Source of the DNA: Gossypium raimondii
Lineage: Eukaryota > Streptophyta > Magnoliopsida > Malvales > Malvaceae
DNA length: 64,000 nucleotides
Assembly: GCF_025698545.1 (NCBI RefSeq)
Contig: NC_068567.1
Coordinates: 59,091,371 to 59,155,370 of the forward strand
Reading direction: 5' to 3'
Positions within the stretch are counted from its first letter, which is position 1, and every line of letters starts with the position of its first letter. The position numbers were made by a program, and so were the translations under genes. This document shows positions 2,552-60,266 of this stretch, in pieces. The notes below the pieces were generated by a model. The model worked only from the letters and a program-made list of their open reading frames with translations. It was not told the origin of the DNA and ran no database searches.

Positions 2552-5485
2552 TGTTAGATGGGTTATGGGGCGAAGCGTCTTAGGGGGAAGAAGAAAAATG
2601 GGAGATTTGTGGAAGAAATGAAAAGAAAAGGCGAGGGGAAGTGGATGGCGGAAGTGGGGGGAATTTATTAGAGGAGAGGCATGTGGGCACACTCGTCGGT
2701 ACAATGAAAAGGAGAAGGGTGTAGGTGTCAAGGTTCCCTTCATCCAAATTTCTTACCATATCGAAACCCAAAATAAAAAAATAAAAAAAACACTTTGAAT
2801 TTTGAATTTTGATTGCAAATAAAAATTTAAATTTAAATTTTATTTTATGAATAAAAGATTTAAATTTATCTAATAATTTGATAAATTTAATAAAAATAAT
2901 CGGTTTATATTTTAACTTTTATAATATTTTTTATTTTTAGGATAAATATCAAAATTATCGTGAATTATAGTTTAATGTGTAATTATATAAATGAATTTTA
3001 ATTTTGTGTAATTTTACATGAAATTTCGATTTGATCCAATTCTTGTAAATTATTAACACAATTATTCATATAACATCATTTTATGTTTATATATTGTATA
3101 CATAAAAATTATATTTATCCAATATAAGAATAAAGTTATGTATTTATTTCTTTAATATGCATATTAAATCAAAATTAAAGTTTCAAGTATAAATTTGAAC
3201 CATAATCGAGTTTCACGTGTATAATTGTACCAAATTAAAGTTCATGTATATAATTGCACATCAAATCAAAATTTATGTATAATTTTGAGATTTATCCATT
3301 TGAAGGATGCTTTACTTGTTTTTCCTTTATAAAAATAATAAACATTACATTTATTTGTTATTTTACATAATTTATCTATTTAATGTAATAAAATTTATAT
3401 ATCATGAATTGTAATTCATCTACGTTGGTGTAAAATTAATATAATTTTTAATTTTTATTATTGATATTTTAACAATTCAATCGTTAATTTTATTAATATA
3501 ACCATTAAGGTTTTGAATCGATCGATATCTCTATCTCTATTATATTGATTTAAAATATTGTCCATATTAATATATATTTAATGATTAAAAGTTTTTTTTA
3601 TATAAAATAATTAATTAAAAAGAAATTATTTACATCAAACTTAATACGTATAATTTTAGATAGATTTTAAAATTAAATTAATTTTATTGAAATTATTATA
3701 ATTTTTAAAAAGATTTTTAACTGAAAATTTTATGGTTGTAATTCTATAATTTCCATGAGAGTGAGGCGTGGGAAAAAAGGCTATGGTTGGACCACTCCTT
3801 TGCACAGCCAAAAATCATTTTTCTTTTTCAACAATTTTCGTTCACATTTACTTTTTGGTACTACAATTTTAGACAACTTTGGCCAATGTGGTTTCTTACT
3901 TTCCTTCACCTAAACAAGATTCGTACAATTTTGGAGTAAAAGAAACAACATTATTTTGCCTTTTTTATTTTTCAAATATTTTTTAATAAAGTAAACAATT
4001 TTTCCTTAAATATTAAGAACTGAAATTCTGGAATTTATTTATATGCAGATTTCACCATAAATATCGTGATATTTTATATATATAAAAATCCTTTTTCACC
4101 CATGATTTTCGTTTTATTTTCCCTTTTCATTTATTTAAACTATTTCATCATTCATCTTTTACTATCCAATTAAAAATATTAAAATCAATGAAAAAGAAAA
4201 TAAATATATCATTCTCCTATTAAGAAGGGATAGAAATGACGTGAAATCACAGTTTCATACAATCCCTTAGAGGTGTTCGTATAAATATATCTATACTTCA
4301 TAAAAATTAACATAAATAAACAGAATGAATTTTCGATCAATTAATTTAAACATATAAAATAAAATTGATATTGAAAAGGAATGAGGCAACAAGGGAATAA
4401 CCTTACCAACGTTTAATTATCCTTTGAATAGATATGTTGCTTAATATGTTAAGCATGGTTGCCCCAAATTCCAAAAGTTTGATGTAGGCCTGCCCAATGA
4501 GCTGTGCCTTGTTATAATTCACAATAACTAGCCATGTTCATTCATATATATTAGTTATATAATAAATTACGTTTTTTTTATTTTTTTTAGCTAAATTTAG
4601 TCATTATCCTTTCAAAAATATTCAAATTACATTCTTTTAATGGAAATGCTAATTAAAATAGTAATTTTTTAACGATGTTGATGTGACAACTCCCGTGTAG
4701 ACCTGATGTAAAATTTTAAGCATGTTTTCTAGGCTCAACCTAACTCAAAAAATGGATCTAAAATTTTTTCCAAGTTCGATCCGGCCCGCCCGTATTAAAT
4801 TTTTTTATATAGAAACAAATTTTAAAAATATAATACATCAAATACACTAAAAACATTAAAATAAATGTTTCCCAACAAATTAAAAATACATTAAAAATAA
4901 TACTAAGATAGATGCAACTTAACAAACAAATATCTTTAAAATAGTAACAAAATTAACAATAAAATAAAAGTTATATAATATCTAAAAAATAACAAAAAAA
5001 TAGTAGCAATATAATAGCAAAATGACATTAAAACAATAGTAAACAACATCAAAATAGGAGGGAAATTATTTTTAGTCAAATTCGGGTCAAGCCCAAGTCA
5101 AAAAACTCTTACCCAAGGAAACGGGCCTTATTTTTTGTCCTTACCCATTTTTTTGGTCTATATTTTTCTCAAAATTCTCCTACTTTTTTAGTAGACCTTC
5201 GAGGCTAGGCGGGTGATCTAGCCCATGATCAAGTCTATTAGCGTGACACTCTACATCTATTGATCTTATATGTCATGTCAACAAATAATTTAAATTTTAT
5301 AAAAATATTTAAAAATAAAAAATTCGAAATCTGAAAAAATAATAAAATAAAATAAATATGAATTGTCATGCAAATTATCATATTTAAAAATTTAATATTT
5401 TATTAAAAATGATATGATTTTTTAAAATTAATGATTAAATTCGATAATTTTAAAAGTTGAAGATCAACTTTAACTAAAAAGGAAA
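2552..5485. other. AT-rich intergenic DNA
   Basis: Upstream side of the lipid transfer protein gene, so its promoter lies within the first few hundred bases. The rest is very A+T-rich with no convincing coding sequence. Part of it (about 4690-5290) belongs to a dispersed repeat listed separately. Confidence 0.6.
4690..5290. repeat. Dispersed non-coding repeat, relative of copies near 36.65-37.2 kb and 40.14-40.29 kb
   Basis: The middle of this stretch, rich in short AATAGTAACAAAAT-like runs, matches the reverse complement of about 36650-37200 and the same strand of about 40140-40290. Its ends carry Arg/Gly-codon-like GC patches (GGCCCGCCCG near 4783; a CCCATGATCAAGTCTA motif near 5222, also found near 37197). 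This looks like a degenerate non-autonomous DNA transposon family. No target duplication was found. Confidence 0.5.
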
Positions 5486-12500: not shown

Positions 12501-15500
12501 ATTTGATTTGAGAGCACAAATAAATTCAGATCCTCAATGAGTGAGTTCTTTGCTTGCGATGATAATGCAATAGGCTTCAAAATAAAGTATTATATAGACA
12601 AAAACCGGTGACATGCACAAGCAGGCAGCATTTGACAATTAGGGCGGAGAAACCCTATGAAGCCCAATCAATATTTTTTAAACGTAGTTATGGGTTTCTG
12701 GAACTTAATAAAGCATAAAACTCTGAAGAAAATAAAAATATGTTACCAACTACTAGTCATACTCATGAGAATTCCACAATTTTAAAGACGTTTTTCAGAA
12801 AATTAAACCCAAAACATGCCTAAGTCTTGTATTGTAACTCTATATTAGACAGTTAAATCCTAAATCCATTTGTATTGCTTTGCTGATAATAACAGAACTT
12901 CTCTAGCAACTAGACAGCCAGAATATTAAGATAAAGCACATATTTTATATTTGAATCTTGGGTTAGTCACACAAAAACAGGATCCTCACTGTGATATTCT
13001 TTAGGCCTTAGTCTTAACAGCTTTGATGGCATAAAAAAGCAATAAGGATTACTGATGATTACTTTCTATGTAAAATTATTTGACCTAGGAGAATCGGGAA
13101 AACCATTCAATATCCCATCATCAATTTTGTTATTATTTATAGTATTGCATTTATATAATTTGACTGGGATATCCAAATTGAATATAAACACCAAGAAGGG
13201 ACAAGTTGTAGCTGCTAATATAAACAAAAATAGAGAACTAACCATATTTGAGCTCTTGACTATGTCACTATCAACAGATTGATTCATTGTTGTATGGACT
13301 GTAGCCTCATTGAGAATTGACTCAACCTCAGATAAAGTGGAGTTCAACTTAATTTCACCAACTTCACCTTCAGTCGCATCCTCTATCATCACTAACATTT
13401 TTGATGCATTTATGCTTTGTTCATTGCTATGTTCTTTGGAAGACACAGATTTTTGAGCAACTTCTTCACCAGCATCATCCTTTCCGCTTTCCTGGAACTC
13501 AAGATTATTAGGCATTTCAATATTGAAGCAGGCTCCTAAAGAAGTAGATTGAATTTCAATTTCACTTTCAATGCTATTTTCAGAATCTGCTACTTGAGCA
13601 CAAACCTCTTCCACTGCTAAGTCCATCTTAGGTTCCATATTCAAAGTAATACCTTCAATTTTACCAATTCTCTCACCATTTTCCCCGGCACCACTATTTT
13701 CTTCCTCCTCCAGCTTCACACTGTGAGGAACTTCGCTTTTGGAACTAAGCTCTAAAGAAGCTAATTCAGTTCTAGTTTCACTTCCACTAGCAGGAGCTTC
13801 CAATGGAGGAGAAGCCTTTTCTAAATCAGGAACTAAAGCCATCTTAGACTCCATATTCGAAGTAGTACACTCAAATTTACCAATCCTTTCACCTTTTTCC
13901 TCAGCACTAGTGTCTTCTTCCTCTTCCAACTTAACACTCTGGGGATCTTCACTTTTGGAACCGGACTCAAAAGGAGCTAATTCAGTTGTAATTTCACTTT
14001 CAATGGCAGAAGCTTCCAGTGGAGGAGAAGCCTTTTCTGTATCAGCAACTAAAGCTATCTTAGACTCCGTATTCAAAATAGTACACTCAATTTTGCCAAT
14101 TCCCTCACCTTCTTCCTCAGCACCAGTATTTTCTTCCTTTTCCAACTTAACACTCTGGGGAACTTTACTTTTGGAACTGGACCCTGAAGGAGCTAATTCA
14201 GTTGTAATTTCACTTTCAATAGCAAAAGCTTCCAGTGGAGGAGAAGCCTTTTCTGTATCAGGAACTAAAGCCATCTTAGACTCTGTATTCAAAATAGTAC
14301 ACTCAATTTTACCAATTCCCTCACCTTTTTCCTCAGCACCCGCATTTTCATCCTCTTCCAACTTAACACCGTGGGGAACTTCACTTTTGGAACTGGACTC
14401 TGAAGGAGCTAATTCAGTTGTAATTTCACTTTCAATAGCAGAAACTTCAAGTGGAAGCGAAGCCTTTTCTGTATCAAGAACTAAAGCAATCTTAGACTCT
14501 GTATTCAAAATAGTACACTCAATTTTACCAAACCCCTCACCATTTTCCTCAGCACCAGCGTTTTCTTCTTCTTCCAACTTAACACTGTGGGGAACTTCAC
14601 TTTCCAAACCAGACTCTGAAGGAGCCAATTCAGTTGTAATTTCACTTCCAATATCAGAAGCTCCCAGTGGGGGAGAAACCTTTTCTATATCAGGAGCTAA
14701 ATCCATCTTTGATACCATATTCAGAGCAGTATCCTCAGTTTTACCATCATTCTCACCACTTCCTTCAGAACCACCCTTATTTGTCTCCTGTAACTTAACA
14801 CCATGGGGCACTTCAACTTCGGAACCCAACTCTGGAGAACCTAATAGAGTAGTAGTTTCACTTTCAACAACAGAAGCTGTCAATGGAGTAGAAACCATTT
14901 CTACATGATGAACTAATTCCTGATCTAATGCCACATTCAATTTACTAGAACCCTCAGTTTTACTAATGCACTCACCATTTTCCTTGGGGACAACATTATT
15001 TTCTCCTTTTACAACATCCCCAAGCTCATCGGGTTGATCTTTAGTATTTATATTCTTAGAAGAATCAACTGATTTTTTCTCAACCATTCTGTCATCACTG
15101 ACAACAGAGGCAGGTTTCTCTTTAACAACTTCAGTTACTTTGGTTGCATTTCGTCTTAGTTTTCTCTTAGGTTGAGATTTAACCTGAAAATTACGGCCAA
15201 CTTTCTTCTTCATAGGTTCTACAGCTGCAGCATCTCCATCAGAAACACCAACCGCTTTAATACTGCTCTTATCTACCTTGTCCAAATCTTTGCCACCATC
15301 TTTGGCAACAACCTTAGCACTTTCATCGGTTGTTTGCGTTTGATCTTCAATTATTGCCATTTCACTCGCATTTCCAAACCGGAAGATAACGCTGCCATCA
15401 GAATGCTCTGCACATTTCACCAACGCTCACAATTATCCTAACGAACAAAATTTAATCTAAGCTTCTTTTACTTGAAATTCACCAGTTACTAAAAATGCAA

Positions 15501-16457: not shown

Positions 16458-16466
16458 TTAAAATTT
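16458..16466. repeat. Left 9-bp target site duplication of the MULE
   Basis: TTAAAATTT immediately outside the left terminal inverted repeat, identical to 20265-20273. Nine base pairs is the diagnostic duplication length for Mutator-superfamily insertion. Confidence 0.9.
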
Positions 16467-16705
16467 GGGTTTTTTACAATAATATTATAAAAAAAATAAA
16501 AATTTACCAAAATATTATAACTTTTTTTTATTTATCAAAATATATAAAAAAAAATTATTTACCAAAATATATAAAAAAACATGCAAAAAAAATCAGATCG
16601 ATGTGACAATTAACTGGTCACGCCAATGGGATTGGCGGCACCAAAGGTGCCAAAACCATTGGCGGCACCAATGGTGCCAATGCCATTGGCGGCACCAGTT
16701 AATAA
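16467..16705 (+). repeat. Left terminal inverted repeat of the MULE
   Basis: Outer part is AT-rich with ACCAAAATATTATAA-like words. Inner part (16590-16705) reads ATCAGATCGATGTGACAATT and then a GC-rich minisatellite built from CCATTGGCGGCACCAA and TGGTGCCAA words. The reverse complement is found at 20020-20264 with small indels. Confidence 0.9.
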
Positions 16706-16727
16706 TAGGGGGGTCGGTGGTGGGGGG

Positions 16728-16968
16728 GGCAGAAGGAGAGGGAAAGAAAGAAAGAAAGAGAGAAAGAAAGGAAGAAATGAGAGGGAAGAAAGAAAAAGAA
16801 GGAAAGAAAGGGAAAGGGGAAGAGAAAAAAAGAAAGAAAGAAGAAGAAGAGAAGGAAAAGAGAAGGAAAAGAGAAGAAAAAAGAAAGAAAGAAGGAAAGA
16901 AAAGGAGAGGAGAAGAGAAAAAAAAGAAGAAGAAGAGGGAAGGAAGGAAAAAAAAGAAAAAAAAAGGT
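16728..16968 (+). repeat. Polypurine (GA-rich) tract
   Basis: About 240 bases of almost pure A and G (GAAAGAAAGAAAG, GGAAAAGAGAAG, AAAAGAAGAAG words) just inside the left TIR. It is open in more than one frame and would encode only Lys/Glu/Arg runs, which I regard as low-complexity artefacts rather than a gene. Confidence 0.85.
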
Positions 16969-16969
16969 A

Positions 16970-18235
16970 ATTTTATTTATAAATTTAAATTTTTTGTAAT
17001 ATTTGTTTATTTAAAATTTATGTTATTTCATTATAGTTATTTTATTATTTTATTTAGCATATATATTTTATGAAATATGTTTAGAAAGAAAAAATAATGG
17101 TATGCACATTGTATGTTGATTAGGATTTTTTATGAAATTTATTTAGGAATTTGAAATTAAAATTTTAGGAAAATAGCATTAAAAGTAAAATGACAAAGAA
17201 GTATGTTTAAGAAAACATAAAATACGAAAAGAAAAAACGGAATTGTATATTTATCGAAAATAATAAATGCGGAAAAATGCAAAAATGCACATGTAATAGA
17301 TTTCAAACATAATAAATTGAAATAATGTAAAATTATAAAATAAAAATTACGATATTTTAAAAAATAAAATACGATAAAAAATACGAAGAAATGACCAAAG
17401 TAAGAGTGTATTACTTTTTTAAAAACATCAATAATATAATTTATACAAATAATTGAAACAAAATGTACTGAAATAATATAAAATTATAAAATACGAAAAT
17501 AATATAGTTTTATTGAAAGTAATAAAAATCGGAAAAATAATAATACGACCAAAGGGCAGGGGAAAGGGTTTATTGCGGCTTTTTTAGCAAAATATTACAA
17601 AAAAAATACCAAAATTTTATAAACTTTTTCTTTATTTACCAAAATAATAGAGGGAAAAAAAAAGGGTGATGGAGGGGAAAAAAAGGCGGCACAAATATGT
17701 GGCTAATTATCTTTTAATCCCTGCTTATTTATTATTTTCTTTTATTCCCCCTTAACACACTAAATTAATAAATTTCAAACATGATGCACTGAAATAATGT
17801 AAAATTATAAAAGACTAAGTTTATGATATTTTTTAAAGTAATAAAATGCGGAGAAAAAAATACGAACAAATGGCAGAAGTAAGAGTGTATTACTAACTTT
17901 TATAAAATTCAGAAATAATTAATACAAAATATTTCAAAGAAAATGTACTGAAATAATATAAAACAATAAAATACGATAATAATATAATTTTATTTAAAGT
18001 AATAAAAATCGAGAAAATAATACGAGCAAAGGACAGGGGTAAGGGTTATTTTTTACACCAAATTAATTTAAACAACACTCTAGAGTAATAAATTTCAAAC
18101 ATTATGCATTGAAATAATGTAAAATTATAAAATTAGAAATTATGATATTTTTTAAAGTAATAAAATGCGAAGAAAAAAATACGAATAAATGGCCGAAGTA
18201 AGATTTATTTACTAACTTTTTTTTTCAACTTGCAG
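16970..18235. repeat. AT-rich internal MULE region with diverged direct repeats
   Basis: Segments about 17390-17580 and 17860-18050 are direct repeats offset by about 0.47 kb, sharing GAAGTAAGAGTGTATTACT, AAATGTACTGAAATAATATA and GGACAGGGGTAAGGG words. A further copy of the neighbouring unit occurs at about 17760-17870 and 18080-18190, and a partial copy ends just before the acceptor at 18236. This could be the 5' leader or promoter of the mobile domain fragment. Function unknown. Confidence 0.6.
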
Positions 18236-18243
18236 GCATCGCA

Positions 18244-18760
18244 ATGGCTCGATTGATACGAACCGATATTAGACACATATCTGATGCGGCTAATAACGCG
18301 GTATGATTTATTATTTGTTAATCAAGAGTTCTATTTATTTAAAAACGATATACGCAGTATATACAAATAAATTATGTTATCGTAATATTTTTCTGTAATT
18401 TTACACTATCAGGACTCGTTCCGAGTATTAAGGGGCCGTGTCAGTGCTTTAAAGATAGCTCCGGATGCACGATTTATGCCGTACCTAGAGCTAGCCGGAT
18501 TTGGGTCAGTAGCATTGATCTGGTCCTCCGACTTGCGGTTTGATTTATTATCTGCGCTGTGGAGCGGTGGCGTCCGGAGACCCATACTTTACATTTTCCG
18601 TGCGGGGAGTGCACGGTGACCTTGGAGGATGTTGCAGTGCAACTTGGGCTCCCAATTGACGGGAGTCCCGTAACAGGAGTATCTTCATTCACCGATCCGG
18701 CTGCAGTTTGCTATCAACTCCTAGGAGAGTCACCAGAGGATGGTGATAAATATTTTTCCG
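18244..18760 (+). pseudogene. Plant mobile domain (PMD / MAIN-like) gene fragment, frameshifted and truncated
   Basis: PMD proteins occur both in plant transposons and as domesticated MAIN/MAIL genes involved in silencing and development. Exon 1 is 18244-18300 (MARLIRTDIRHISDAANNA), starting just after an intron acceptor near 18237. Exon 2 starts at 18413 after a CTATCAG acceptor and encodes SFRVLRGR, LELAGFGSVALI, then VERWRPETHTLHFPCGECT, LEDVAVQLGLPIDG and LLGESPEDGDKYF. Relative to the family, one G is missing near 18558, so the ALVERWRPETHT block is out of frame with the upstream block. The coding match stops at about 18755, where antisense transposase sequence begins. Only the N-terminal third of a PMD protein is present. 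Function is therefore unlikely. Confidence 0.8.
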
Positions 18761-18761
18761 G

Positions 18762-19386
18762 CGTCAATATCATCAGTTACATCGTTGTTGACATCTTCAG
18801 CGTCAATATCATCAGGTACATCGTCCACATCGGGATCAGCGTCACTATCGACCTCTTCATCCCAATTATCGCCACCACCTTCTTCTTCGTCGGCACCTTC
18901 TTCTTCATCACCAACCATGTCAACATCGGCTGTAATATTTAGGTCGATATCGATCCCACCCATAGTTGATTCACTATCAACGTATGATATTGGAGCCACC
19001 ATCCGCGGTTCTTCAGCCGCGTCTTCTTCATCAGATGCATTTTGCTCCATACCGACTAACTCAGCAAATAAGTGAATTTGTGCATTCTTCCCACTCCCAT
19101 TCCCACAGTAGAGATCAACCATTGTCTCCACGTCTTCGTCGTCTACAAGTTCCATTTCGACGAATTTGACTGGATTTGTCGAAACTGGAAACTTGTAGAA
19201 GATTTTTGATATCCTTCTCCCACAACGTCTATGGATTTTTGCATTAATCCTTGCCTTCATTTCATCGAACGATACATTTCTATTAAATCTCATTACTATT
19301 TGTTGCCGACATTCAAATACACATCCAACACTTGTTGTCAATATGACTCCATCGAAATAAACGCATACAAGAAACTTAGCATCCAT
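18762..19386 (-). pseudogene. MuDR-type transposase, N-terminal region only
   Basis: Open from an ATG at 19386: MDAKFLVCVYFDGVIL, FNRNVSFDEMKARIN, RISKIFYKFPVST, DDEDVETMVDLY, then a long Asp/Glu-rich linker (DEEEGADEEEGGGD, DADPDVDDVPDDID). This is the PB1-like N-terminal domain and acidic linker that precedes zinc-finger and DDE domains in plant MULE transposases. The SWIM and DDE domains are missing because the frame runs straight into the mobile-domain fragment at about 18760 and stops at 18730. It has no stop within its preserved part. Confidence 0.8.
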
Positions 19387-19586
19387 CTTCAATATTTAAT
19401 CAGTCAAATAAAAAAAAACAAAATCTCATAAAAATCTCGACGATATCGAATTACTTAAAAAATTATACTCAAAATAATACACAAAATAATACACACTAAA
19501 ATTATTAATTTTATACTCAAAATAATATTAATAATTTTATACTCAAAATAATACACACTAAAATTATTAATTTTACTAAAAATAAT

Positions 19587-19610
19587 AACTAACTAACTAA
19601 CTAACTAACT
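19587..19610. repeat. AACT microsatellite, six units
   Basis: Perfect tetranucleotide run inside the MULE. Confidence 0.9.
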
Positions 19611-19748
19611 ATAATAATAATACTAATTTTTACTAACTAGTTTATTTTCAGAAAATAAAAATAATAAGTAACCATAATAATAATATTAGTTTTCGCTAAC
19701 AATAATATTACTAAGTTACGACTTAATACATTAATAACATCTTAATAC

Positions 19749-19783
19749 CAACAACAACAACAACAACAACAATAATAATAATA
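19749..19783. repeat. AAC then AAT trinucleotide microsatellite
   Basis: A run of CAA units passing into AAT units inside the MULE. Confidence 0.85.
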
Positions 19784-20019
19784 CTAACTAATACTATTAT
19801 TTTGAGTTTTATTAATCTTAATAACTAAACTAAAACAAAAATATTACAAAATATTACAAAATAATAACAACAATATAATCAATTATTTTTAAAAATAACT
19901 CCTTTTCTCCTATTTTCTCTTCTTTTCGCTACCAACTCTTCTTCTTCTTTTTTTTTCTTTTGATTTTCTCTCTTCATTTGATGAGAGGTCGATTTATAAT
20001 ACGAGTGGTGCCGCTTAAT

Positions 20020-20264
20020 TAGTATGGCACCATTGGTGCCGCCAATGGCATTGGCACCATTGGTGCCGCCAATGGTTTTGGCACCTTTGGTGCCCCCAAT
20101 CCCATTGGCGTGACCAGTTAATTGTCACATCGATCTGATTTTTTTTGCAGGCGTTTTTTTGGTTTTTGTATATTTTGGTAAATAAAAAATTTATATATTT
20201 TGGTAAATAAAAAGTTATAATATTTTGGTAAATTTTATTTTTTATAATATTATTGTAAAAACCC
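20020..20264 (-). repeat. Right terminal inverted repeat of the MULE
   Basis: Reverse complement of 16467-16705, including the GC-rich GGTGCCGCCAATGGCATTGG minisatellite and the GTCACATCGATCTGATTTTT block, ending in GTAAAAACCC. Confidence 0.9.
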
Positions 20265-20273
20265 TTAAAATTT
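20265..20273. repeat. Right 9-bp target site duplication of the MULE
   Basis: TTAAAATTT, identical to the left copy at 16458-16466. Confidence 0.9.
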
Positions 20274-24438: not shown

Positions 24439-27438
24439 TGTAATAACCTAAAATTCACAAGTATTGAAAAAGTACATTATCGGGCCTCCGTCTTAGTAAA
24501 TTGAGTTCAAAAAATTATTAGAAATACTTATTAGACTAGTTGTGTGTTTAATTAGGTTTTAGATAGGTGAATTTAGCTTAATTAAGAGTAATTAGTAAAA
24601 TGATTAAATTATAATAGAAGTGAAAGTTTAATTATAGATTAAAATAAAGTGTAAGTTTTGAATAGTAGGGACTAAATTGAAAGAATCCCGAAATTAGGGA
24701 TTTATGGTGAAATTGAAGAGCTAAATTGAGTTTATAGTAAGAATTAAGAGAGAATATGGAGTTAGAATGGGAAAATAAAATTAGTATTGATAAGGGATTA
24801 AATTAGAATTTGGGTAAAGTTTAGGTATAAATGGAAATATTTAGATGAAATTGTGTATTAATGATTTTTAATTGTTTAATTACATAGCTAATGTCGCGCG
24901 AGAGTCATTGTCCGAGAAAGGAAAAGGAAAAAGGTGGACAAGAAGGGACTTGAGAGAAATTTCGGTTAGTATTACCATAATTCGAATTTATTTATTCATT
25001 GTTGAAATTTAAATTAATATACATGATAAGCAAATTGAGGTGAGTATCACGATTGAATTGAATGAAATATATATATATATATATATACGTATTGGTATTG
25101 AATTTATTGATAGTAATTGTTAAATTTTGAATAATATGTTTAGTAAATAAAAATAAGGTGAATATCGATATTGAATTAAATGAATTAAAAATATGAATTG
25201 AATAAAAGTGAATTAAATTCGATTATGTGTGAATATGTGAATTGAGTATAGATTGAAAAGTGGTTTGAATTGAATTGAAGTATGATTATATGTGAATATC
25301 TGAAATATGTATTGGTACTGAATTGTATATTGATTAGAAAGTGGAAAGTGAATTTGGATTGAATTGTGATTGAATCGAAAGTGAATTTGAAATAGAAAAA
25401 TGATTTGAATACCCTATTAACTAGTCGGGCTGAGTCGGATATAGTTGGCATGCCATAGGATTGGAAGCGTTCAGGGATACTTCGACCTTGAGTCGATGAG
25501 ATACTGGGTGTCATACTGTTACTTCGGATAGATTCGATGAGGTACTGGGTACCAACTTACTTCAGCTTGGCCGATGAGACACTGGGTGTCATTTTATTGC
25601 TTCGAACTATCCGATGAGGCACTGGGTGCCATTCTGGTGTGTTTGGTTGGATCCGTGTATCCGCCAAAGTCCGAGTCAAGTTAATAGGGGTAAATGAATA
25701 ATTTTGATAATATAAATTTTATTGAATGATCTTGAATATGAATTGAAATAAGATATTAAATCGAGATATGGAAATGAAATGTATGAACCATGGGTTCAAG
25801 AAATAGATAACGATATAGTTCATGAATTGGTTTTGGTAGTATGAGATGATGTAAAAATATACGTAAAGAAAAGCAAATTGAAATAGCTATTGTTGAGAAA
25901 TGATAAGTGAAAATAAAATGATTTGAAATAGTGAAATAATATGTGAATTTAATTGAATACAAGTTATTGAAATTTATTTATGGATCTAATGAATAAATTG
26001 AGTGTTAAAAGATTATAAGTGTAAATTGATTATAAATGAACGAATCAATTAAAAGATAATTATTATTATTATTATTATTGAAACATATTGGTCTAAATGT
26101 TTTAATTTGATTATTAAAAGATTTAAAGTATAAATTGGATATAAATAGAAATGATAATGAATGAGTTGATAAATTGATTGAATTTGTATGAATTTGGAAT
26201 GAGTTATTAAAATGAGATGTTGAAAAATCCAATAAAATTTAGATAGTGAAATAAGGTATGAATACAATTAAATATAAAATTGAAATATTGCTTATTGTTA
26301 TTAGTGATCAAGTTGTTTTAAAGTATGAGACAATTAATGAATAATTGTAGACATAAATTAAATGTATATAATTTATCAATTAAAGTTATAAATTTGAATT
26401 ATGGTAATACCACTGAGTATTCCCATGCTCAGCGTACGGTTGTTTCCGTGCGCAGGTTAGTAGAAAACCAATGTTCGGTCCAGCATCCAGAGTAATCCAG
26501 ATCTTAGAAAAATTTTAGTGATGTACTTTTCTTTTGATAACGTGGCATGTACCTAAATAATGTATATACCTAAGTAATGTATATACCTAAGTGATGTATA
26601 GGGATTAGTCATTTTGAATGTTTGTATCTATGATATTGCTAAAGGAAGATGTGTGAGTATGTGATAAAGTTTGGCTTTTAAAATGGTTAAGTGTGAATAT
26701 GTTTGGTACTATGTATGTTTAGGTGATAAATCATGCATGGAAATCATGAAAGAGTAAAAATTTGCAAAGAAACAGATTTCAAGCAACTACAGTGATGTGA
26801 TTTTGAAAAATCACCTAGGATAGTATATAATTAGTTAGAAGGTGAATGATATGTATATTGAAATCTTATTGAGTCTATTTTCATGGAAAATAATGGTTTA
26901 ACAAAATAAATTTTATATTTTGACATATGTGAATTTTAATGAGACAGGGTCAGATCTGTTTTGGAGTCCCCTGTTCTGAGTTTAGAAAATCATTAAAATT
27001 GTAAAAAATATTTTGAGCTGTATTTTACATGCTTAGATTCCTTAATGAGTCTATTTTCTTTAGAAACAAGTTAGAACATCATATGAAAATCCTATAATGA
27101 GAAAATTTATTTTTAGTGGTAAGAGGTCAGGACAGTCAAGTGGTGAAATAGGGGAGACTTTAACTAATAAACTATACTAATTGGATAAACATAAAATTCT
27201 AAAAATTTTATGGTAGGAAGATATATGAGTCTAGTTTCAAGGAAAATTTACGGAATTAAATTCCAAGTCCCGTAACTCGAGTTATAATTAATTTAGTAAC
27301 TACTACACGATTGGACAAAATTGCTGTAAATAGTGAAATAAATTTTCAAAACAAGTTTTTATACTCCGAATTAGTAAGATAAGCTAAGTAATGCCTCGTG
27401 CTCGACTCCGGAAACGGTCTCGGGTAAGGGGTGTTACA
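24439..27438 (+). mobile_element. Solo LTR, 3.0 kb, of a Ty3/gypsy-like retrotransposon
   Basis: Starts TGTAATAACC and ends GGGGTGTTACA, flanked by the 5-bp direct repeat TTGTT at 24434-24438 and 27439-27443. Short inverted ends (TGTAA and TTACA) and a 5-bp duplication are diagnostic for LTR elements. There is no internal coding region, so this is a solo LTR. About 25495-25645 holds several imperfect units around CGATGAGGCACTGGGTGCC. The 26410-26465 stretch and the AATGCCTCGTGCTCGACTCC end are what I associate with Tekay-type elements of Malvaceae. A TA microsatellite lies near 25067-25088. Confidence 0.85.
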
Positions 27439-33659: not shown

Positions 33660-34833
33660 TTAATTAACTTTAGAACAAACTTTGCGAATTTCACCCACAG
33701 TGCCTGTCTTCACTTCAATGTTACTCATCTTCACCATGGACCTTCCAAATTCAATGTTAAAGGTCAATCCAAGTAAGCCTCTAATGCCCAAGAATCGTTG
33801 GACAAAGGTCTTGGTGGAAGCATCAGTCCATAACCTTTGATCAGATTCCAGTATTCCCTTCCCATCTCTCAAGTTGGCAAAGAAAGAGTTATCAAATCTG
33901 TTAACGCTGCCTGTGTCCAATCCAATCCTCCTTGACCCATCACCGTTCTGCGGACACAGCGCTTGAAGCTGGGAAACGAATGCGGCGGTGATAGCAGGGT
34001 CGGCTCCGTTTCCGGTCGTGGTGAAGTTGTAAAGCCTGTATCTGAAGAATTGGCAGGCTGTAGTACCGATCGTGTGGCCTCCTGGAGTACATAAAGTGCA
34101 TTGAATTTCATCAGTTACAGTGTGAAAATTTTAATTAAGGGTTAAATTCGAATGAAATAGAAATCTAAATGCTTACCAACAAGGGTGACAAGATCTTGAG
34201 TATTGAGACCCTTTGCTGCAAATTTTTGCTTCTGCACATCGACTGAGTCACGGAAGCCTGGCAAATTGGCCGCATCAGATGCCTGTGAAACCGTTCCATC
34301 TCGGCGGCCTGTCGGCACTGCCCAGCTGGCTCCACGGGTCTGCATCATACATTATTAACCAATAATTAAACTACGTATAATCCTTATTAATTCTTTCATC
34401 CGAAACGAAGATCAAAGGAACATATAGTTACCAGAACTACAGAATCACGAGCAGCGAGGGCTAGAATATCAGCACACGAAACAACTCCAGGGCATGCAGC
34501 TTCAAGCTGAGTCTTGGCATCATCAATGACTTCGTAACCTCTCAACAAGAGGTTCGGTGGGGCGGTTTTCTCAGTGCCAGGTCCATCAATAAGGATGGAA
34601 GCATCGCATCCATGGACAAAGCAGTCATGGAAATGCATACGGAGCAAACCAGGAGCAATAGTGGGATCAGACCCGAAATGGGATTGAACCGTCGACCTCA
34701 CGATGGACTCAACTCGAGGACATGAAGTTGAGTAGAACCCAACCTTGGTGCCCTGGCTTTCCACCAAGCTGACAGCTATGGCAAGCAATAGGGTAACTAA
34801 AAGGACATTTTGGCTGAAACAACTGACCTCCAT
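33660..34833 (-). CDS. Class III secretory peroxidase (POD1), Peroxidase N1-like, three exons
   Basis: Heme peroxidase secreted to the apoplast, oxidising phenolics with hydrogen peroxide. Exons on the complement: 34432-34833, 34177-34339 and 33660-34081; product 328 residues. Signal peptide is about residues 1-27, mature start near [13 protein letters not shown]. Distal Arg65 and His69 are in [10 protein letters not shown], followed by the HGCDAS calcium site. The proximal His is in GGHTIGT. Cysteines of the four disulfides are in place ([27 protein letters not shown]). It is more diverged from POD2-4 than they are from each other and lies on the opposite strand. Three exons rather than the common four; POD2 and POD3 share the two intron positions. 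Confidence 0.9.
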
Positions 34834-36640: not shown

Positions 36641-37200
36641 AGGCGAAGTAGACTTGATTATGGCCATTCACTCATGCCCAAAGGTTCGTCTAGAAAGTGG
36701 GAATGTTTGGACAAAAAATAATGCTCGTTTTCTAAATTGGTCGGGTCTCAAGTAAGATTTTTTTTGTCCTACCCCACCTGAATTTGCCTAAAGTTTTTTT
36801 CTTGCTATTATTTGGTATTATTTTGTTGCTGTTTTGCTATTATGTTACTACTATTTTGTTATTTTTTGGATATTGTATAACTCTTGTTTTATTATTAATT
36901 TTCTACTAATTTAGAGGCATTTGCTTTGCTAAGTTACAACTATTATTTAAGTATAAAGACTTTTTTAATGTATTTACAATTTATTGAGAAACATTTATTT
37001 TAATATTTTTTTGTATATTTGATATATTATATTAATTAAATTTTTTTATATAAAAAATAATATAAAAAATTTAAAACGACTGAGTCGGGTTTAACATTTT
37101 TATCTGGGTCGGGCTTGGATAAAAATTTAGACCCTTTTTTTTGGCTCGAGCCCAAAAACAAACCTAAATTTTTGCATTGACTTGGCATCGTCTAGTCCAT
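36640..37200 (-). repeat. Dispersed non-coding repeat, inverted relative of 4690-5290
   Basis: The stretch TATTATGTTACTACTATTTT near 36839 and its neighbours match 4940-5010 as reverse complement. Ends with the CCATGATCAAGTCTAGG motif near 37198. Confidence 0.5.
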
Positions 37201-38686: not shown

Positions 38687-39880
38687 TAGGAGTGAGTATT
38701 CGATCGAGTCGAGTCGAATTCTATTTTAGCAACCGAACTCAATTTGAATTTTTTTTAATCGAGCCGAATCGAGTCAAAAAATTTCAAGTCGAGTCGAGTT
38801 AACAAATCTTATTATTTATACTTAATGTTGCATTTACATGGACCAATTATTTAATTAATAGACGAAGTACAAGCTTTTAGATTAATTTTGAGTAAAGAGA
38901 AAGGGAAAGTGGGGCGATTCGGGAAGGTAAGTAAGACTACCGAGTAAACGTTTATCAAAACAACGTAGTTTTGCCTTTTAACTTGATAGTTTTGACTTTT
39001 AACTTTAAATAAGGTAAACATTTATCAAAAAGACGTAGTTTTGTTTTTTCTTTTTTGGATTTTCGAATAACTTGAACTAAGTGTGAGCGTTTGGTCGAAT
39101 TGAGTAAAATTTTTTACTTTTAACTTTAAATAAGGTAAACATTTATCAAAACAACGTAGTTTTGTCTTTTCTTTTTTGGATTTTCGAATAACTCGAACTA
39201 AGTGTGAGTGTTTGGTCGAATTGAGTGAAATTTTTGACTTTTAACTTTAAATAAGGTAAACATTTATCAAAACAACGTAGTTTTGTCTTTTCTTTTTTGG
39301 ATTTTCGAATAACTCGAACTAAGTGTGAGCATTTGGTCGAATTGAGTGAAATTGTTCGAGTTAAATTAGAAAAATTAATAATATCAAATTAAAATCTTGT
39401 TACAATATAACTATTTTCATGTTAGAATACATAAATTTGAAACCATATATATTTGAAAACTTTTTAAAGCATAATAATAAGATATTTTAGTATGATAAAC
39501 TTAAATCATTAATCACTTATTTAGATTCCAAAATTATTATTTTATAAAATTTTAAAATTTTAAAATTTTAAAAATTCAACTTTTTTATATATATTTTAGA
39601 TTTAAAAAATATAATTTTTTTAAAAATACAAATTTTAAATTTTATAAATATTTAAATTTTTGAAAATTATTTAAATTTTTGTAATTTTTATTAAGAGAGA
39701 GACTAGTTTGCTCATTTTCAAAATTGGTAAGGACCAAAAGGGTATTTATACTAATCTATTATTCGAGTTATTCAAATTGTAAAAATTCAACTCGACTCGA
39801 ACTCGAAATCCGAAATTTCTTATCCGAGTTGACTCGAATAATTCGAATAACTCGATTCGTTTAACTCAAAATTTAATCGA
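38687..39880. mobile_element. hAT-like non-autonomous element with TCGAG-rich ends
   Basis: The left end reads TAGGAGTGAGTATTCGATCG followed by GAGTCGAGTCGAATTC. The right part (39785-39880) carries the inverted theme (CAACTCGACTCGAACTCG, TAACTCGATTCGTTTAACTC). Ends of the form yAGGGGTGAGCATTCGGTCG are common to plant hAT elements as I remember them. The extreme right terminus and an 8-bp target duplication are not identifiable, so the right limit is approximate. No transposase is encoded. Confidence 0.55.
38995..39365 (+). repeat. Three 121-bp tandem repeats
   Basis: Anchor AAGGTAAACATTTATCAAAA occurs at 39011, 39132 and 39253, spaced 121 bp. Each unit includes CAACGTAGTTTTG, GGATTTTCGAATAACTCGAA and GTGTGAGYGTTTGGTCGAAT. 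A diverged partial copy precedes at about 38940-38995. Confidence 0.9.
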
Positions 39881-40434: not shown

Positions 40435-41656
40435 GTAAGAATAAAGTGGTATTTACATCTGTTGATGCTACAAGGAAATGAAGCTAAGGAGTAGAAAAGT
40501 AAAGCAGGTTTTTTCATGTCTTTCAACAAAGGGATTTGCATGGAATCCAATGCACGCGTTAACGAAATTTGACTATGTTCTAAATTCGGAAAACACTGTA
40601 TATATTAAACAGAGAATCACGAACAGTTTTAATCATTATTTACTACAAAAATTACTTACTTTATTTATCCCATTCGAACAAACACTTGCAATTTAATAAT
40701 ATCACAATCATTCCTTTTCATAGATTACCAAGACTTTTAGATATAGTGGCTTTTAGGGTCCTCATTTTTTTATTTTTTATTGAATCATACAATAAATAGA
40801 TGAGATCTACATGAATATATATAATTAATATTTGATGTTATTTGATATAGTGATGATGTATAAAATTTTATATTATTCATAAAGTCATTTAGATTTAATT
40901 TTAAAAACATCTGATGAGATGTAGAATTTATGCTGATCAACGCAACAAACAAATTTAGGGTAAAAGAAAAAAAATTAAGGCATCCCAATATATTTCCCTT
41001 TAAATTAATAGAGTTACAGTTTGCTTGGAGTAGATGAGTTGTTAATTATTTGATAAGATTTCTTGAAAATATATAAAAATTAGTTGGTAAGATAATGCCT
41101 TGTTTTATTCGTTGGATTTAAGAATTATATAAAATTAACGAGTCGTAATCAAGTGAAAAATCTTACGACGAGTCTCAATATGTATGATACAAGATCATGA
41201 TTATAACAAAAAAAGAATGAAAATGAGAGACTCTTTGGAGATTTGACTAAGTTCTGTCTAAAATCTTAATACATTGCAAGCCTGCAGCAGTTAGCTGTCA
41301 CCTTCAAATTTGCCAGTTGGCAAGTTCAATTGAGTCGTACATATCTAATTATATATACATTTTTTTAATATACATAAAATAAAATAATGTTTTTATATCA
41401 GTGTAAATAAATAGATGATGTTTGAAAAAAATACTAGGTCTTCACGTGAAGCTGAAAGACAGCTCGCCATTGCAATTTGCTTTTCGTTTCCACTATGCTT
41501 AACCAGAAGCAGGCAAGCAGCTACATGCTAATTGTCTACCAACTCATCATTGCTCCATTATTGTTATTTCGAATTAGCCCATTTTTCCCTTTTCAATGGC
41601 GGTTCCTTATAGCCGGCTTTCTTTACTTTTTCTCTATGTTGACTAAATTTTTGGCC

Positions 41657-41664
41657 TATAAATA
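41657..41664 (+). promoter_or_regulatory. TATA box of POD2
   Basis: TATAAATA about 130 bp upstream of the start codon, identical to the one before POD3. Confidence 0.7.
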
Positions 41665-41792
41665 AACCCCCACCTCTGCTCTGCTCTCCCATCCCACAAA
41701 CTCACAATCAATTACATCCACTGTACACACACAACATATCTTTCTCTTTGCTCTTCATCCTTGGTTATAATCCCAGTCTACTAACTACGATA

Positions 41793-42957
<1,165 letters not shown>

Positions 42958-43004
42958 TTTAACTGCAGTTTTATGCAGTTAATCAGGGGGGGTGATGGTT
43001 ATTT

Positions 43005-44035
43005 TCTCAATTAGCGTAAGCTGATGAAAAAAGCTAAAAAACGTTTTAAGCAAATTTTAAAAAAAATAGTACACATGATTTTTTCCCTACGTATTTATGC
43101 AATGTTAGTATTCTTGTTAATTGTATCATTATATTTTTCAATGGATTTAATATTTGAATTTTTTGTAATATCTTACTTACACTTTAAGATTTTAGCTTTT
43201 AGTTATAATAGTTGCTCCATTAGTTATCCATTTGTGGTTTGACTTATTTCACAATAATTGCTTAATAATCATTTCCCCCTTCATTATTGATAGAGTCGTG
43301 ATAACATATTTCTACATATGATTATTACGAGAAAATAACACAATTTCTAACATAAGCATTGCTGAAGAAAACAAGGCTTTATTAACCATATATACTAGTT
43401 TCAAAATCTATTTTGTAAATTAGTTGGGTATAGAAATTATTTAGAGCACCCTGAGGGGCCGACTTTAGTATTCATATTAGGGTAAGGCAACCAATCAATG
43501 TTAGGGTTAGACTATGGCAAACTATCAAATGTTAGGGCTTACATGTAATATAGTTTTGTTGTACATGCATGCATAGTTGGGATGATGGGAGCCTAGCATG
43601 ATGGAACTAGAGGCTTCTGATTGAGCAGATCATGGAAGACTGAGATGATAAAACAAGTCTCTAGATGAGTTGATGGAAGCCTAATGATAGAATAAGGTAC
43701 TGAACGCTTTTGGTTGAGTAGATGGAAGATTGAGACAATACAACAAGTTTCTGGATGAGTTGATGGAAACTTGATGATGGAACAAGGGTTGCAGTTTAGT
43801 AAAGAGTTAATTGAAATAATAATGACAAAGGTGTGGAGGCTGAAGATTATATATAAACACCGTCATAGCAGTTCAAGGGGAGAAGTAAGTTTTTTCAGCT
43901 TCTTTCCTTGAGCATTGTTATCTTATTCTTGGTATTATCTTTTAAATAATTTGCAATATTTATCTACCTTCTATAATCTACAAATTGAGCAACATTTTTT
44001 ATGATGTGGTCAACTAAAATGGTCGAATTCGAGAT
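43005..44035. other. Downstream region of POD2
   Basis: To about 43390 it is the diverged 3' part of the duplicated segment. Beyond that lies a 90-bp tandem repeat (listed) and AT-rich sequence. No gene seen. Confidence 0.5.
43575..43800 (+). repeat. 90-bp tandem repeat, about 2.5 copies
   Basis: GATGAGTTGATGGAA occurs at 43664 and 43754, with a diverged GATGATGGGAGCC at about 43580. Units include ATGATRGAAYAAGG and GGTTGAGTAGATGGAAGA. Non-coding. Confidence 0.75.
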
Positions 44036-48194: not shown

Positions 48195-48904
48195 ATGACT
48201 CGAACCAGTAACGAGGTTGTACCATTCGAACCGGAGCCGAAACAAATCTTGACACACACTAGAAGGGACCAACTTCCGAGAGGAGCCCAACCCCCATTGA
48301 TAGACCCACTGATTGTCAGGTAGGCGATCGACGATCAGAGAGTCGAAGAACATCCACCCCCATTTCACCAAAGACCGATGGTAGAATGAACGTTGAGAGA
48401 CTATGCCATGCCCGATTTGCAGGCGATCCATGGAAGCATTAATCGTCCCGCGATTAATGCTAAAAACTTCAAGATCGAATCGACGATGATCCAGATGATA
48501 CAAGGGAATCTTCAATGCTGATGCTTAATGAACGAAGACCCGAATCAACACCTTAAGTGGTTTCTAACCCTTTGTGATACTTTTAAATATAATGGGGTAA
48601 TCGGTGACGCCATATGTCTTCAGTTATTCCCTTTCTCTTTAACTGATGATGCTTTCATACTGTTAGATTCGCAGCCCGTTGAATCAATCAATATATGGGA
48701 TGAGCTGACCAGCAGATTCCTCGCCAAATATTTCCCCCCGAGAAAGACTATGAAGCTTCAGATGGATATCATAAATTTCTGTCAGCTCGAGGGAGAGTCT
48801 CTTTACAAAGCCTGGGAACGTTTCAAATTAATGCTACGTAAGTGCCCTTATCTACCACCAGCCGTACCTTTCACCACCAAGCATGCCTTGTGGCTACAAC
48901 AACA
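48195..48904 (+). pseudogene. Ty3/gypsy gag fragment
   Basis: Begins MTRTSNEVVPFEPEPKQ, has several in-frame stops, then TLRDYAMPDLQAIHGSIN and after a further stop an open stretch 48528-48850 with EDPNQHLKWFLTLCDTFKYNG, LQLFPFSLTDDA, WDELTSRFLAKYFPPRKT and ESLYKAWERFKLMLRKCP. This is the retrotransposon gag (capsid) domain of Athila-type elements. Similarity fades after RKCPYL. The relic is cut by a solo LTR at 48905. No protease or polymerase is present downstream. Confidence 0.75.
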
Positions 48905-50130
48905 TGATGTGCCACGAAACTAACTAAAAATACGACGAAGGCGAGTGCACCTATCGATAAATAGTATAGCTATAGTGAGTAGAGATATCGTATCCACAGG
49001 GACTAAAAGTATTTGTAATTACTGTTTTCCTATTATTTAGCCGATAAATTGGAGTTATTGGTTTTAAACTAAATTTACTAAATTAATCTAACTAAGAACT
49101 CAATAGAAAATAAATTATGAAAATAACCGAATAATAACCAATGAGAGAGACAATACCCAGGAAAGAATCCATCTAGACTTCACCTACTATTATGAATCTG
49201 AATTAAACAATTTATTCACTTGGTATTTTGATCTGTAGAATCCCTAAATTATGCTAATATCTCTTTCAAGAGTAAGAGCAACTGACTCTAGGTTAATTAA
49301 TTGAAATATCTTTCTAATTAAAACCCCTATTGTTGCATTAACTCGATCTATGGATTTCCCTATTAGATTTGGCTCTAATCTGGTAGATTTATGTATCCTA
49401 TTTCTAAGATTGCATGCAACTCCACTCAATTATGCTAGATCTACTCTTAAATAGTGACTTTTCCTCCTTTGATTTAAGCACATTAAACATGAGTTAATAT
49501 CCTAGAAATATTAAAACAAGAAATAAGCACACATAACTAAGAACAAAAATCAAGTATTATCGCATAAAACAAAAATTAACTAATAGAATTCATCATAGGT
49601 TTCATCTTCCCTAGGTATCTAGGGAATTAGTTCATAATTCTAAATAAAAACATCTCAAAGTTAGAATAACCACAAGAAATAAAGAAACTCATAAAAACTT
49701 CAAAAGAAATTAAAAGGAGGTCTTCAATCTTGATGGAAATCTGCTTCAGAGTTGGCTCTAATGGTGTTCTTCGAGTTGTTTTCTTCAATATTCTCTGATG
49801 ACTCCCTTCTCTCTTATTCTATTTGGTATTTATAGACTTTAGAATACTCGGAAAGCCTAAAAAAATGTTTTCCCTTCGTGTTTGGGAAGCAAGTTGCGAA
49901 ATCAATACAGTCTGGCACATGGTCGTGTGTCCAGCCTGTGTGGCTCTTAAAATCTACTCTTTTTGTCTGATTTTCGGTTGTTTCTCGCTTCTTTTTCTCC
50001 CATATGCTCACCTAAGTATAAAAACATAAATTCAAATGATTAGGAGCATAAAATTCACTAATTTGCATGAATAATCATCCAAAAACGCATTAAAAATGGG
50101 ATTAGAATATGTTACTTTTATCGTTTATCA
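48905..50130. mobile_element. Solo LTR, 1226 bp (family L2)
   Basis: Starts TGATGTGCC and ends GTTTATCA, flanked by the 5-bp direct repeat CAACA at 48900-48904 and 50131-50135. It is homologous over its length to 58922-60184 (shared AGTGCACCTATCGA-like start, ATTTAGCCGATAAATTGGAG, AGATTTATATCATCC, GGTATTTATAGACTTTAGAAT). No coding region, so a solo LTR or a short non-autonomous LTR element. Confidence 0.8.
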
Positions 50131-50135
50131 CAACA

Positions 50136-50759
50136 TTTACCTGATTCATGTTAAACCGTTAAATTAAAAAAAACTTATTGAAAAATAAAACTATTTTAAT
50201 CCCCTATCTTATTTTTCTTAAATACAATACAATAAGTTTAATATTTAATACCCAACGCATCATATACATATTGGGTGAAATCTAAAGTTGAGTCGTCCAT
50301 GGCATATTTGGACTAAACATAATATGACGGCGGATACAATGGCTAAGGATGCCAAGCTGTAGCCGATTAGTCTTTACATTTTTTATCGACCTCCTCAGTC
50401 TGCTGACCTCGCTTCATGCAAGTTGATTAAACCATAGACAAACAATTAAGCCAACCTTAAAAAACACAGGAAGGATAAAGGAAAGTAGAAAATAAATAAA
50501 TAAAAAAGGTTGAATATATTAAAAAAAATGATATCAGATTTTAAAAATAAAACCAATAATTTAATAAGATGGTATGATTTGATTTATTAATATTCAACTG
50601 TATTAAAAATGAACTCATTAAGATAGGCATGCAAAAGGAGACTTTTGTCGTCGGATGACTTTGTCACAGTTATCAAAATTTCAACGATATTTTATTTTCC
50701 TTGAAGAAAAGAAGCACAATTAACAAATTATCTGCTTTTCCTTGATGATCACCGTCACA
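50136..50759. other. AT-rich spacer
   Basis: No gene or clear repeat recognised. Confidence 0.4.
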
Positions 50760-52356
50760 ATTAAGAATAAAGTGACATTTATTTCTGTTGACTCGGAAAT
50801 AGAAAAAGTAAACCACGCTTTTTCAGGTCTTTACCAAAGGGCTTTGCTTCGGAAAACACTGTATATATTAAACCGAGAATCACGAACAGTTTTAATCATT
50901 ATTTACTACAAAAACTAATTTCTTATAACTTTATTTATCCCATTAAAACTAACACTTGCACCCCTTTTTCATAGATTACAAAGACTTTTGGATATAGTGG
51001 CTTTTCAAGGTCCTCAATATTTCTTTACTTTCACTTTTATTGAATCAAACAATAATTAGATGAGATGGACATAAATATATAATTTATATTTGATGTAGTG
51101 ATGTAAGAATGGAATATGATGAGAGATTATTAAACATAAAGCCATTTTAATTTAATTTTAAAATTTTGATGAGATAATGGCATAATGATTTATTTAATCC
51201 TTTAATTTTAAAAATATTTTAATCTTTTAATTAATTTTTTTATTTTATTTTTGCTTTTAAACTTGTATTTTTTGTCAAATAACTCCAAAATGGATGAAAA
51301 ATTTATTTTTCTTTTATCTTTGTTGATATGAAATACACATGGACTGCCATGTGAATGAAAAATTTTAAAAAATTTATAAAATTTAAAATCATTAAAATTA
51401 TTATAAAATTATAAAAAGTAATTTTAATATTTTTAAATTTTAAAAATTAATTAAATCTTGGCTGGCATATCGGTCACGTGTATCTCACGTTAAAAAGTTA
51501 ACAAATGCTACCTTTTCTATATCCATTTTGGAAGTGATTTGATAAAAAGAAGAAAAATTAAATGAGGTGCTAAAATAATTTTTTAAATAAAATTAAAGGA
51601 CAAAAAATTATTATACCAATGATAATAGATACAGAATTTATGCGTTATCAATGCATCAAACATAAATCAAGTTTAAATTAAAAAAATAATGCATCCCAAT
51701 TATATTCCCTTAAATTAATAGAGATATAGTTTGCTTTGTCCACAAATTTGGTATAAATGAGATTTTAAATATTTGATAAGATTTCTTGAAAACAAATATA
51801 AATTAGTTGGTAAAATCATGTTTTGTGTTATTGGTTGAATTATATAAAGCTAACGATAGACTTAATTAATGAAATTAAAATCTTACAAAGCATACACCCA
51901 TTCATTATAACGTTATCATGTATGATACAAAATTATGATTATTATACAGAAAAGAATGAAGATGAGAGCCTTGAAGATTTGACTAAGTTTAGTAAACTAA
52001 ATTCGGTCTAAAATCTTAATACATTGCTAGCGGTAAGCTGCTACTTTCAAATTAGCCGGCCGGTGGCCAAGTTAAATTGATAATAAATGTTTTTATATCA
52101 GTGTAAATAAATAGATGATGTTTGAAAAAAATACTAGGTCTTCACGTGAAGCTGAAAGACAGCTCGCCATTGCAATTTGCTTTTCGTTTCCACTATGCTT
52201 AACCAGAAGCAGGCAAGCAGCTACATGCTAATTGTCTACCAACTCATCATTGCTCCATTATTGTTATTTCGAATTAGCCCATTTTTCCCTTTTCAATGGC
52301 GGTTCCTTATAGCCGGCTTTCTTTACTTTTTCTCTATGTTGACTAAATTTTTGGCC

Positions 52357-52364
52357 TATAAATA
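52357..52364 (+). promoter_or_regulatory. TATA box of POD3
   Basis: TATAAATA followed by a run of C, about 130 bp upstream of the start codon. Confidence 0.7.
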
Positions 52365-52492
52365 AACCCCCACCTCTGCTCTGCTCTCCCATCCCACAAA
52401 CTCACAATCAATTACATCCACTGTACACACACAACATATCTTTCTCTTTGCTCTTCATCCTTGGTTATAATCCCAGTCTACTAACTACGATA

Positions 52493-53660: not shown

Positions 53661-53707
53661 TTTAACTGCAGTTTTATGCAGTTAATCAGGGGGGGTGATG
53701 GTTCTTT

Positions 53708-54777
53708 TATAAATTAGCGTAAGCTGATGAAAAAAATCTAAAAAATGTTTTTTTTTTAAATATTACACATGATTTTTTCCCTATGTTAATAATTTTGTTT
53801 AATTGTATCCTTATATTTTTCAATGGAATTATATTTGAATTTTGTTTTATATCTTCCTTACACTTTAAGATTTCAGCTTTTAGTTATAATAGTTGCTCCA
53901 TTATATCCATTTTGTAGTTTGACTTATTTCACAACAATTGCTCAATAATTGTTTCTCTCCATTATTTATTGATAGGGTCCTGTTAACATATTTCTACAAA
54001 CGTTGATTATTAGGAGAAATTAACACAAATATTTAACATAAACGTTGTTGAAGAAAACATTTCAAAGTAATAAAATCATTTCACTAATTTTATTTTATTG
54101 TCTATTTGTCTCCTGATGCGCCACCAAACTTCTGTTTTAGAGGATGAAAAGCTCAACTATACGAGTACTATGATCCAATCAAATTAAACAAAATCCAAGA
54201 CGACAGATAAAAGGGATATTACATCGAGAATATTTAATGTATAGTTAGTGTAAGTTTTATGTACCATTAATAAATAATAATATGATACATCATTATTAAA
54301 AATTGGGATAATATAAATTGTGGTTCTTGAACTTGGGAATGAGGTCCATTTTAGTATTTGTACTTTTTATATTCACTTTGGTACTTGAACTTGACAATTA
54401 GATTTATTTTGTTCTCTAAACTTAGATTTTTCAAGATTTGATGATATGATTAGTGTTTTAGAACATAATTGGATTGGTTAGTAAAGAAGACAACTTGTCA
54501 AGTCCTTACTAATAAAAGTTGAGATTAAATCTCTTACATTTCTAAAGGAAATATTGACCGTTTATACAACAAGTGGATATTTCGAAGAATCATGATATAA
54601 ATGTTGTAAAATATTCATCTCCCTGTCTTTTTCATACATAAGGATGGAGAATTATCATTTTCATATATGATGATGTTATATAAATATATACTTTGAAAAA
54701 CATTATAAATATTCTTAATTAATTAATAAAATACATCATTCTCATTCTTCTCCTTTTTTTTTTTTTTTGTTCTTTTT
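53708..54777. other. Spacer between POD3 and POD4
   Basis: To about 54070 the diverged 3' part of the duplicated segment. 54330-54480 resembles 27450-27560. A T-rich tract (54753-54768) directly precedes the point where POD4 homology begins. No gene. Confidence 0.5.
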
Positions 54778-58826: not shown

Positions 58827-58921
58827 ATGGACCAATTCCTCCACCAGGACCTTTGTGCAGCGTTTCTTGGGTGAGAGAGGCTCACTGTCGTTGAATTGTA
58901 ACGTGAAATTCACAAGGTCCA

Positions 58922-60184: not shown

Positions 60185-60266
60185 GTACATGGTTAAGATG
60201 AGTAACATTGGTGTGAAGACAAGCACAAATAGTGATATTAAAAGAATTTGCTCTGCCATTAACTAA

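Follow-up and report, generated by a model that had tools for sequence, protein, structure and literature searches.

In the 64-kb window (i.e., the whole stretch of DNA that was analysed, 64,000 nucleotides), we found a Mutator-like element (MULE) of 3798 bp, located at positions 16467-20264. It is confirmed as a real element, with complete ends and a clean insertion. We interpret it as a non-autonomous, internally deleted derivative of a MULE of the MUDR/MUDRAVI2 type, whose autonomous parent would have carried two convergent genes, one for a plant mobile domain (PMD) protein and the other for a MURA-type transposase, and we estimate the probability of this interpretation at about 0.8. A convergent arrangement with the PMD in antisense has already been tabulated for the MUDR group (PMC6446971, which is cited here, like the other papers below, from extracts of its text), and the element is ordinary in kind. 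A literature search over titles and abstract openings found no description of this particular element.

The limits of the element were set by its terminal inverted repeats (TIRs) and its target-site duplication (TSD), read directly from the sequence and checked by script. The same nine letters, TTAAAATTT, occupy positions 16458-16466 on the left and 20265-20273 on the right, and these two copies directly abut the element start, GGGTTTTTTAC..., and the element end, ...GTAAAAACCC. The TSD is thus perfect at both ends, and its 9 bp lie within the range of 8-11 bp by which MULEs are defined (Dupeyron et al. 2019, PMC6446971). The TTAAAATTT sequence is frequent in the window (16 plus-strand places, both TSD copies counted), and one could argue that the direct repeat arose by coincidence in an AT-rich region and that no genuine transposon ends are present here. 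We regard this as practically negligible. Indeed, the two copies abut both TIR ends exactly, whereas identical 9-mers at two random flank positions were obtained in only 46 of 2,000,000 draws; when each end was allowed to shift by as many as 3 bases, the count was 441 of 300,000 draws. The similarity of the two TIRs is itself far beyond chance (blastn E 2.17e-83).

The left TIR (16467-16697, plus strand) and the right TIR (20034-20264, minus strand) were aligned with each other. The initial annotation had proposed TIRs of about 240 bp; the repeats are indeed present, with a length of 231 nt each by alignment. They show 88.7% identity over 239 columns in blastn (213 of 222 aligned bases identical, 9 mismatches, 17 gap positions), and their inner 135 nt are 94% complementary in an ungapped alignment. 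At the right end the sequence is GGGTTTTTAC, with one T less than on the left. With up to 3 mismatches allowed, the terminal 20-mer occurs in the 64-kb window at the two ends of the element and nowhere else, and two such matches were found in none of 100 shuffles; neither blastn nor this 20-mer scan revealed a further copy of the element in the window. With a 9-bp TSD, 231-nt TIRs and complete ends, the assignment to Mutator-like elements holds, as do the perfect duplication at both ends and the size of 3798 bp that had been noted initially.

Inside the left TIR lies a polypurine tract (16731-16966, plus strand; A+G of 0.99-1.00 over 16767-16966), which may be a transcribed leader of the PMD gene. 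It is mirrored at the other side of the element by a pyrimidine-rich tract (19900-19985, minus strand, on which it is rich in purines; A+G of 0.25 over 19867-19966), the mirror arms 16812-16865 and 19922-19975 being 72% complementary. In the six-frame Pfam scan, plus-frame matches to AAA_11 (E 0.35), DDHD (0.02) and RR_TM4-6 (0.0002) all fell within about residues 90-195, i.e., the end of the left TIR and the polypurine stretch; they were below the curated cut-offs and were rejected as low-complexity matches. The long minus-strand ORF at 13069-15426 gave a Sublancin match below cut-off, which was rejected in the same way.

The next part of the left interior is occupied by five AT-rich repeat units, in which two types alternate (17293-18222, plus strand; family D3, also seen by blastn). 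They start at 17293, 17444, 17765, 17924 and 18085 and probably sit inside a leader intron. About 160 extra bp separate two of these units, and within them a patch (17577-17662) aligns to the TIR from its base 1 with a score of 101, for a maximum of 76 in 500 shuffles and of 80 under a stricter shuffle (0/500 reaching 101). This patch could be taken for an older MULE end at about 17577, in which case the element would be a composite joining parts of two MULEs. Such an origin seems very improbable to us, since unrelated AT-rich windows reach scores of up to 91 against the TIR elsewhere in the 64 kb, and up to 95 elsewhere in the element (in both cases among the best 40 matches listed). Moreover, neither a partner end nor a TSD of its own was identified for the patch, and the spacers next to it show no similarity to the TIR (95/500 and 299/500 shuffles being as good).

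The PMD gene itself is predicted to begin its coding part at 18244, where an ATG directly follows an acceptor-like TTACTAAC...CAG. The predicted first coding exon (18244-18300, plus strand, 57 nt, MARLIRTDIRHISDAANNA) is followed by GTATG and a short predicted intron; it gave no profile match. The second predicted exon (18413-18765, plus strand) is truncated at its end and contains, from about 18547, the plant mobile domain piece that the initial annotation had recognised. This fragment matches PF10536 with an E-value of 1.2e-21 over profile positions 20-104 of 347 (1.9e-20 and profile positions 19-92 in the six-frame Pfam scan), and its reading stops near 18765, well before the end of the full domain. 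The predicted upstream part of the exon occupies a different frame from the PMD match and gave no Pfam match, which suggests a frame break near 18550. By its length of 132 aa, reached by 65 of 500 shuffles, the PMD-side ORF is unremarkable, so that the case for it rests on the profile match. A protein search with the PMD piece in viral contigs, a set that is uninformative on plants, returned 13 pattern matches, and none of them was confirmed by tblastn.

The right interior carries, on the minus strand, an ORF of 218 aa starting with MDAKFLVC... (18733-19386; 221 aa from stop to stop), and none of 500 shuffles of 18244-19395 reached 221 aa. We take the start of this ORF to resemble the N-terminal region of MURA-type transposases from plants, and the ORF is probably the N-terminus of such a protein. 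No Pfam family and no PDB chain matched it at E<=1, and a protein search gave 12 pattern matches in viral contigs and 24 in genome contigs (viral and prokaryote sequence, uninformative on plants), with none confirmed by tblastn. Of the N-terminal transposase piece described initially, the long ORF is present, and its transposase identity is likely. The other statement made about the coding capacity, namely that the element has no DDE domain, agrees with the six-frame Pfam scan, in which no MULE or other transposase family was found at E<=1.

The PMD fragment is antisense to this putative transposase ORF, and the two remnants are convergent and meet near 18760. The region 18763-18840, where both frames end, would correspond to a deletion junction between them. 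A 39-bp imperfect tandem duplication (28/39 identical) is present in this region, and the last codons of the minus-strand ORF probably read PMD-side DNA.

We propose the following origin for this organization. In the autonomous parent, two convergent genes would each have started just inside one TIR, the PMD gene from the left and the MURA-type transposase gene from the right. Both genes would then have lost their 3' parts, and with them the DDE domain, in an internal deletion that left the 5' parts fused tail to tail near 18760. In Mutator systems, the TIRs are the substrate of the transposase, and each new insertion site acquires a 9-bp duplication. The element itself now makes no working transposase. 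Because both of its TIRs remain, it could nevertheless be mobilised in trans, i.e., the transposase of an intact relative could bind the TIRs and move the element, and the repair of a staggered cut in the target would produce the 9-bp duplication.

Some points go against a deletion derivative: no relative, whether autonomous or not, turned up in the window or in the scanned viral and prokaryote contigs, so that the deletion is deduced from a single copy; the minus-strand ORF has neither a Pfam nor a PDB match at E<=1; and Pfam did not recognise the ORF of the PMD frame upstream either. In addition, non-autonomous Mu elements often have internal sequences that bear no relation to those of MuDR, some of them being gene captures (PMC3276141). 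Alternatively, the element could be a Pack-MULE, the PMD fragment having been captured from a host gene and not left from a PMD gene encoded by the element. MULEs do capture gene fragments; the capture of genic PMD-C by MULEs is argued to have occurred twice (PMC5418596), and eudicots contain mainly genic PMD-C (PMC7156037). We consider a capture unlikely here, since antisense PMD genes are listed as a regular trait in the majority of MUDR-group elements (PMC6446971) and the PMD fragment converges with the putative transposase start, each of the two adjoining its own TIR.

A derivative of a MUDR/MUDRAVI2-type element can be compared with several known systems. In Table 1 of Dupeyron et al. 2019 (PMC6446971), the MUDR group is described by a TSD of 9-10 bp where indicated, TIRs of 30-320 bp and 'PMD in antisense for most of them', and the MUDRAVI2 group by a TSD of 9 bp where indicated, TIRs of 80-290 bp and 'PMD in most, often antisense'. 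Gossypium raimondii, from which the present DNA comes, is named in this paper among the hosts of the MUDR group. The element resembles these groups by its 9-bp TSD, by a TIR length in the listed range and by a PMD on the strand opposite to the putative transposase. It differs from them in that the DDE domain is absent, as is the larger part of the two genes, so that it cannot be placed in a DDE phylogeny.

The maize MuDR/Mu system, as described in extracts of PMC3276141, is another close parallel. The likeness lies in the length of the TIRs (about 220 bp), a 9-bp TSD, TIR promoters that can give convergent transcripts, and the existence of Mu5, a published deletion derivative of MuDR. In contrast, the second gene of MuDR is mudrB, which these extracts report only from Zea, whereas the second gene here is the PMD gene. 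In rice, OsMULE-JSS1 (2684 bp), located 0.4 kb upstream of OsPsbS1, is also a MULE with a 9-bp TSD near a gene; unlike the present element, it has 80-bp TIRs, and its presence or absence among rice cultivars has been studied together with PsbS1 mRNA (PMC4178011). A PMD carried by a MULE is also found in the MULE-transposase/PMD-C fusions of several grasses and Amborella (PMC5418596), but the PMD is fused to the transposase there and forms a separate, convergent unit here. For this MULE-associated PMD, host gene capture was proposed, and an anti-silencing use speculated, in the same paper.

The inner TIR may form a stable secondary structure. An imperfect palindrome of 95 nt, ATTAACTGGT...ACCAGTTAAT (16609-16703, plus strand; repeats D8, D14 and I17), is made of 27-nt near-palindromic units and lies mostly inside the left TIR, ending just past it. 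Folded as RNA, the region 16605-16707 reaches -63 kcal/mol (z -10.09) and its right counterpart, 20005-20126, reaches -62.1 (z -6.50), none of 200 shuffles being as good in either case. Palindromic repeats fold well by construction, so that this stability indicates a potential and not a function. It is a speculative and rather improbable idea that the inner TIR constitutes a structured module, in which the 27-nt units nested in the 95-nt palindrome give a very stable branched hairpin. Provided that the family conserves it, this module could be a cruciform recognised by the transposase; or else both transcripts could carry it near their start as an RNA hairpin feeding small-RNA silencing, which an element-encoded PMD protein might counter. 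Rfam returned no match at gathering score over the whole window, and an exact scan with a 23-mer of the inner TIR gave 0 occurrences in viral contigs and 0 in genome contigs (viral and prokaryote sequence, uninformative on plants).

As regards the age of the insertion, the initial annotation had taken the perfect duplication as a sign of a recent event. The duplication is perfect, and the survival of such a TSD was computed at five assumed substitution rates, from 2.6e-9 to 1.3e-8. From the lowest to the highest of these rates, the probability that 9 bp stay perfect goes from 0.95 to 0.79 after 1 My, and from 0.79 to 0.29 after 5 My. At the assumed rates, 9 bp can thus stay perfect for millions of years, so that a perfect TSD says little on age and points weakly to a recent insertion. 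Dating by the divergence of the TIRs was rejected: Mu13, an active maize element, has TIRs 92% alike (PMC3276141), which makes TIR differences unusable for this purpose.

The element is located upstream of the predicted ATG of a PP2C gene carried by the minus strand. This ATG (15852) and the TSD are 606 bp apart, in keeping with the distance of about 0.6 kb to the PP2C start codon given initially, and the exon that contains it would be part of the PP2C gene according to the predicted gene model. When the translations of the five PP2C exons were scanned one by one, no Pfam family was found at E<=0.01; once joined, they matched PF00481 at 4.2e-11 and the PDB chain 6ae9_A, 'Probable protein phosphatase 2C 1', at 4.1e-27. 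MULE insertions upstream of genes can be polymorphic, as exemplified by the OsPsbS1 MULE, which varies among rice cultivars: japonica rice carries it, a few exceptions aside, and most indica cultivars lack it (PMC4178011).

The clean borders of the element make its empty site predictable to the base, i.e., a single TTAAAATTT between ...TTTCAAG and TTACTAAG, and usable as a marker. The element hence represents a natural test of whether a MULE located 0.6 kb upstream alters the PP2C gene, as studied for rice PsbS1. It also adds one more case to the association between MULEs and PMD, and a role of this association against silencing has been proposed (PMC5418596).

The inner parts of the terminal inverted repeats (TIRs) of the Mutator-like element (MULE) each carry an imperfect palindrome of 95 nt, built of 27-nt units (16609-16703 and 20026-20124), and both palindromes are predicted, by fold prediction, to form very stable secondary structures. 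Inside the element, a patch at 17577-17662, located in the roughly 160 extra bp that separate two of its AT-rich repeat units, shows similarity to the outer TIR, starting at TIR base 1; this likeness is just modestly above that of the AT-rich background.

Tandem repeats of about 216 bp are found at 13558-15015, within a long minus-strand ORF (13069-15426) that adjoins the PP2C exons, where they correspond to an internally repeated acidic protein stretch. Another tandem array, at 38984-39356, repeats about every 121 bp, and its copies are 93-96% alike.

The window also contains a cluster of peroxidase genes, in which 40917-43373 and 51627-54059 form a duplication of about 2.4 kb (89%); as for the other copies (54778-55641 and 33672-34787), one is about 85% alike and one, on the opposite strand, is more distant (about 72%). 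Adjoining this duplication, we observed a second direct-repeat pair (48903-50136 and 58920-60190; 80% over about 1.29 kb). Dispersed repeats occur in inverted orientation as well, i.e., 26741-27247 with 57326-57832 (75% over 512 alignment columns) and 4795-5052 with 36802-37065 (78% over 268 alignment columns), and both pairs are perhaps older transposon copies.
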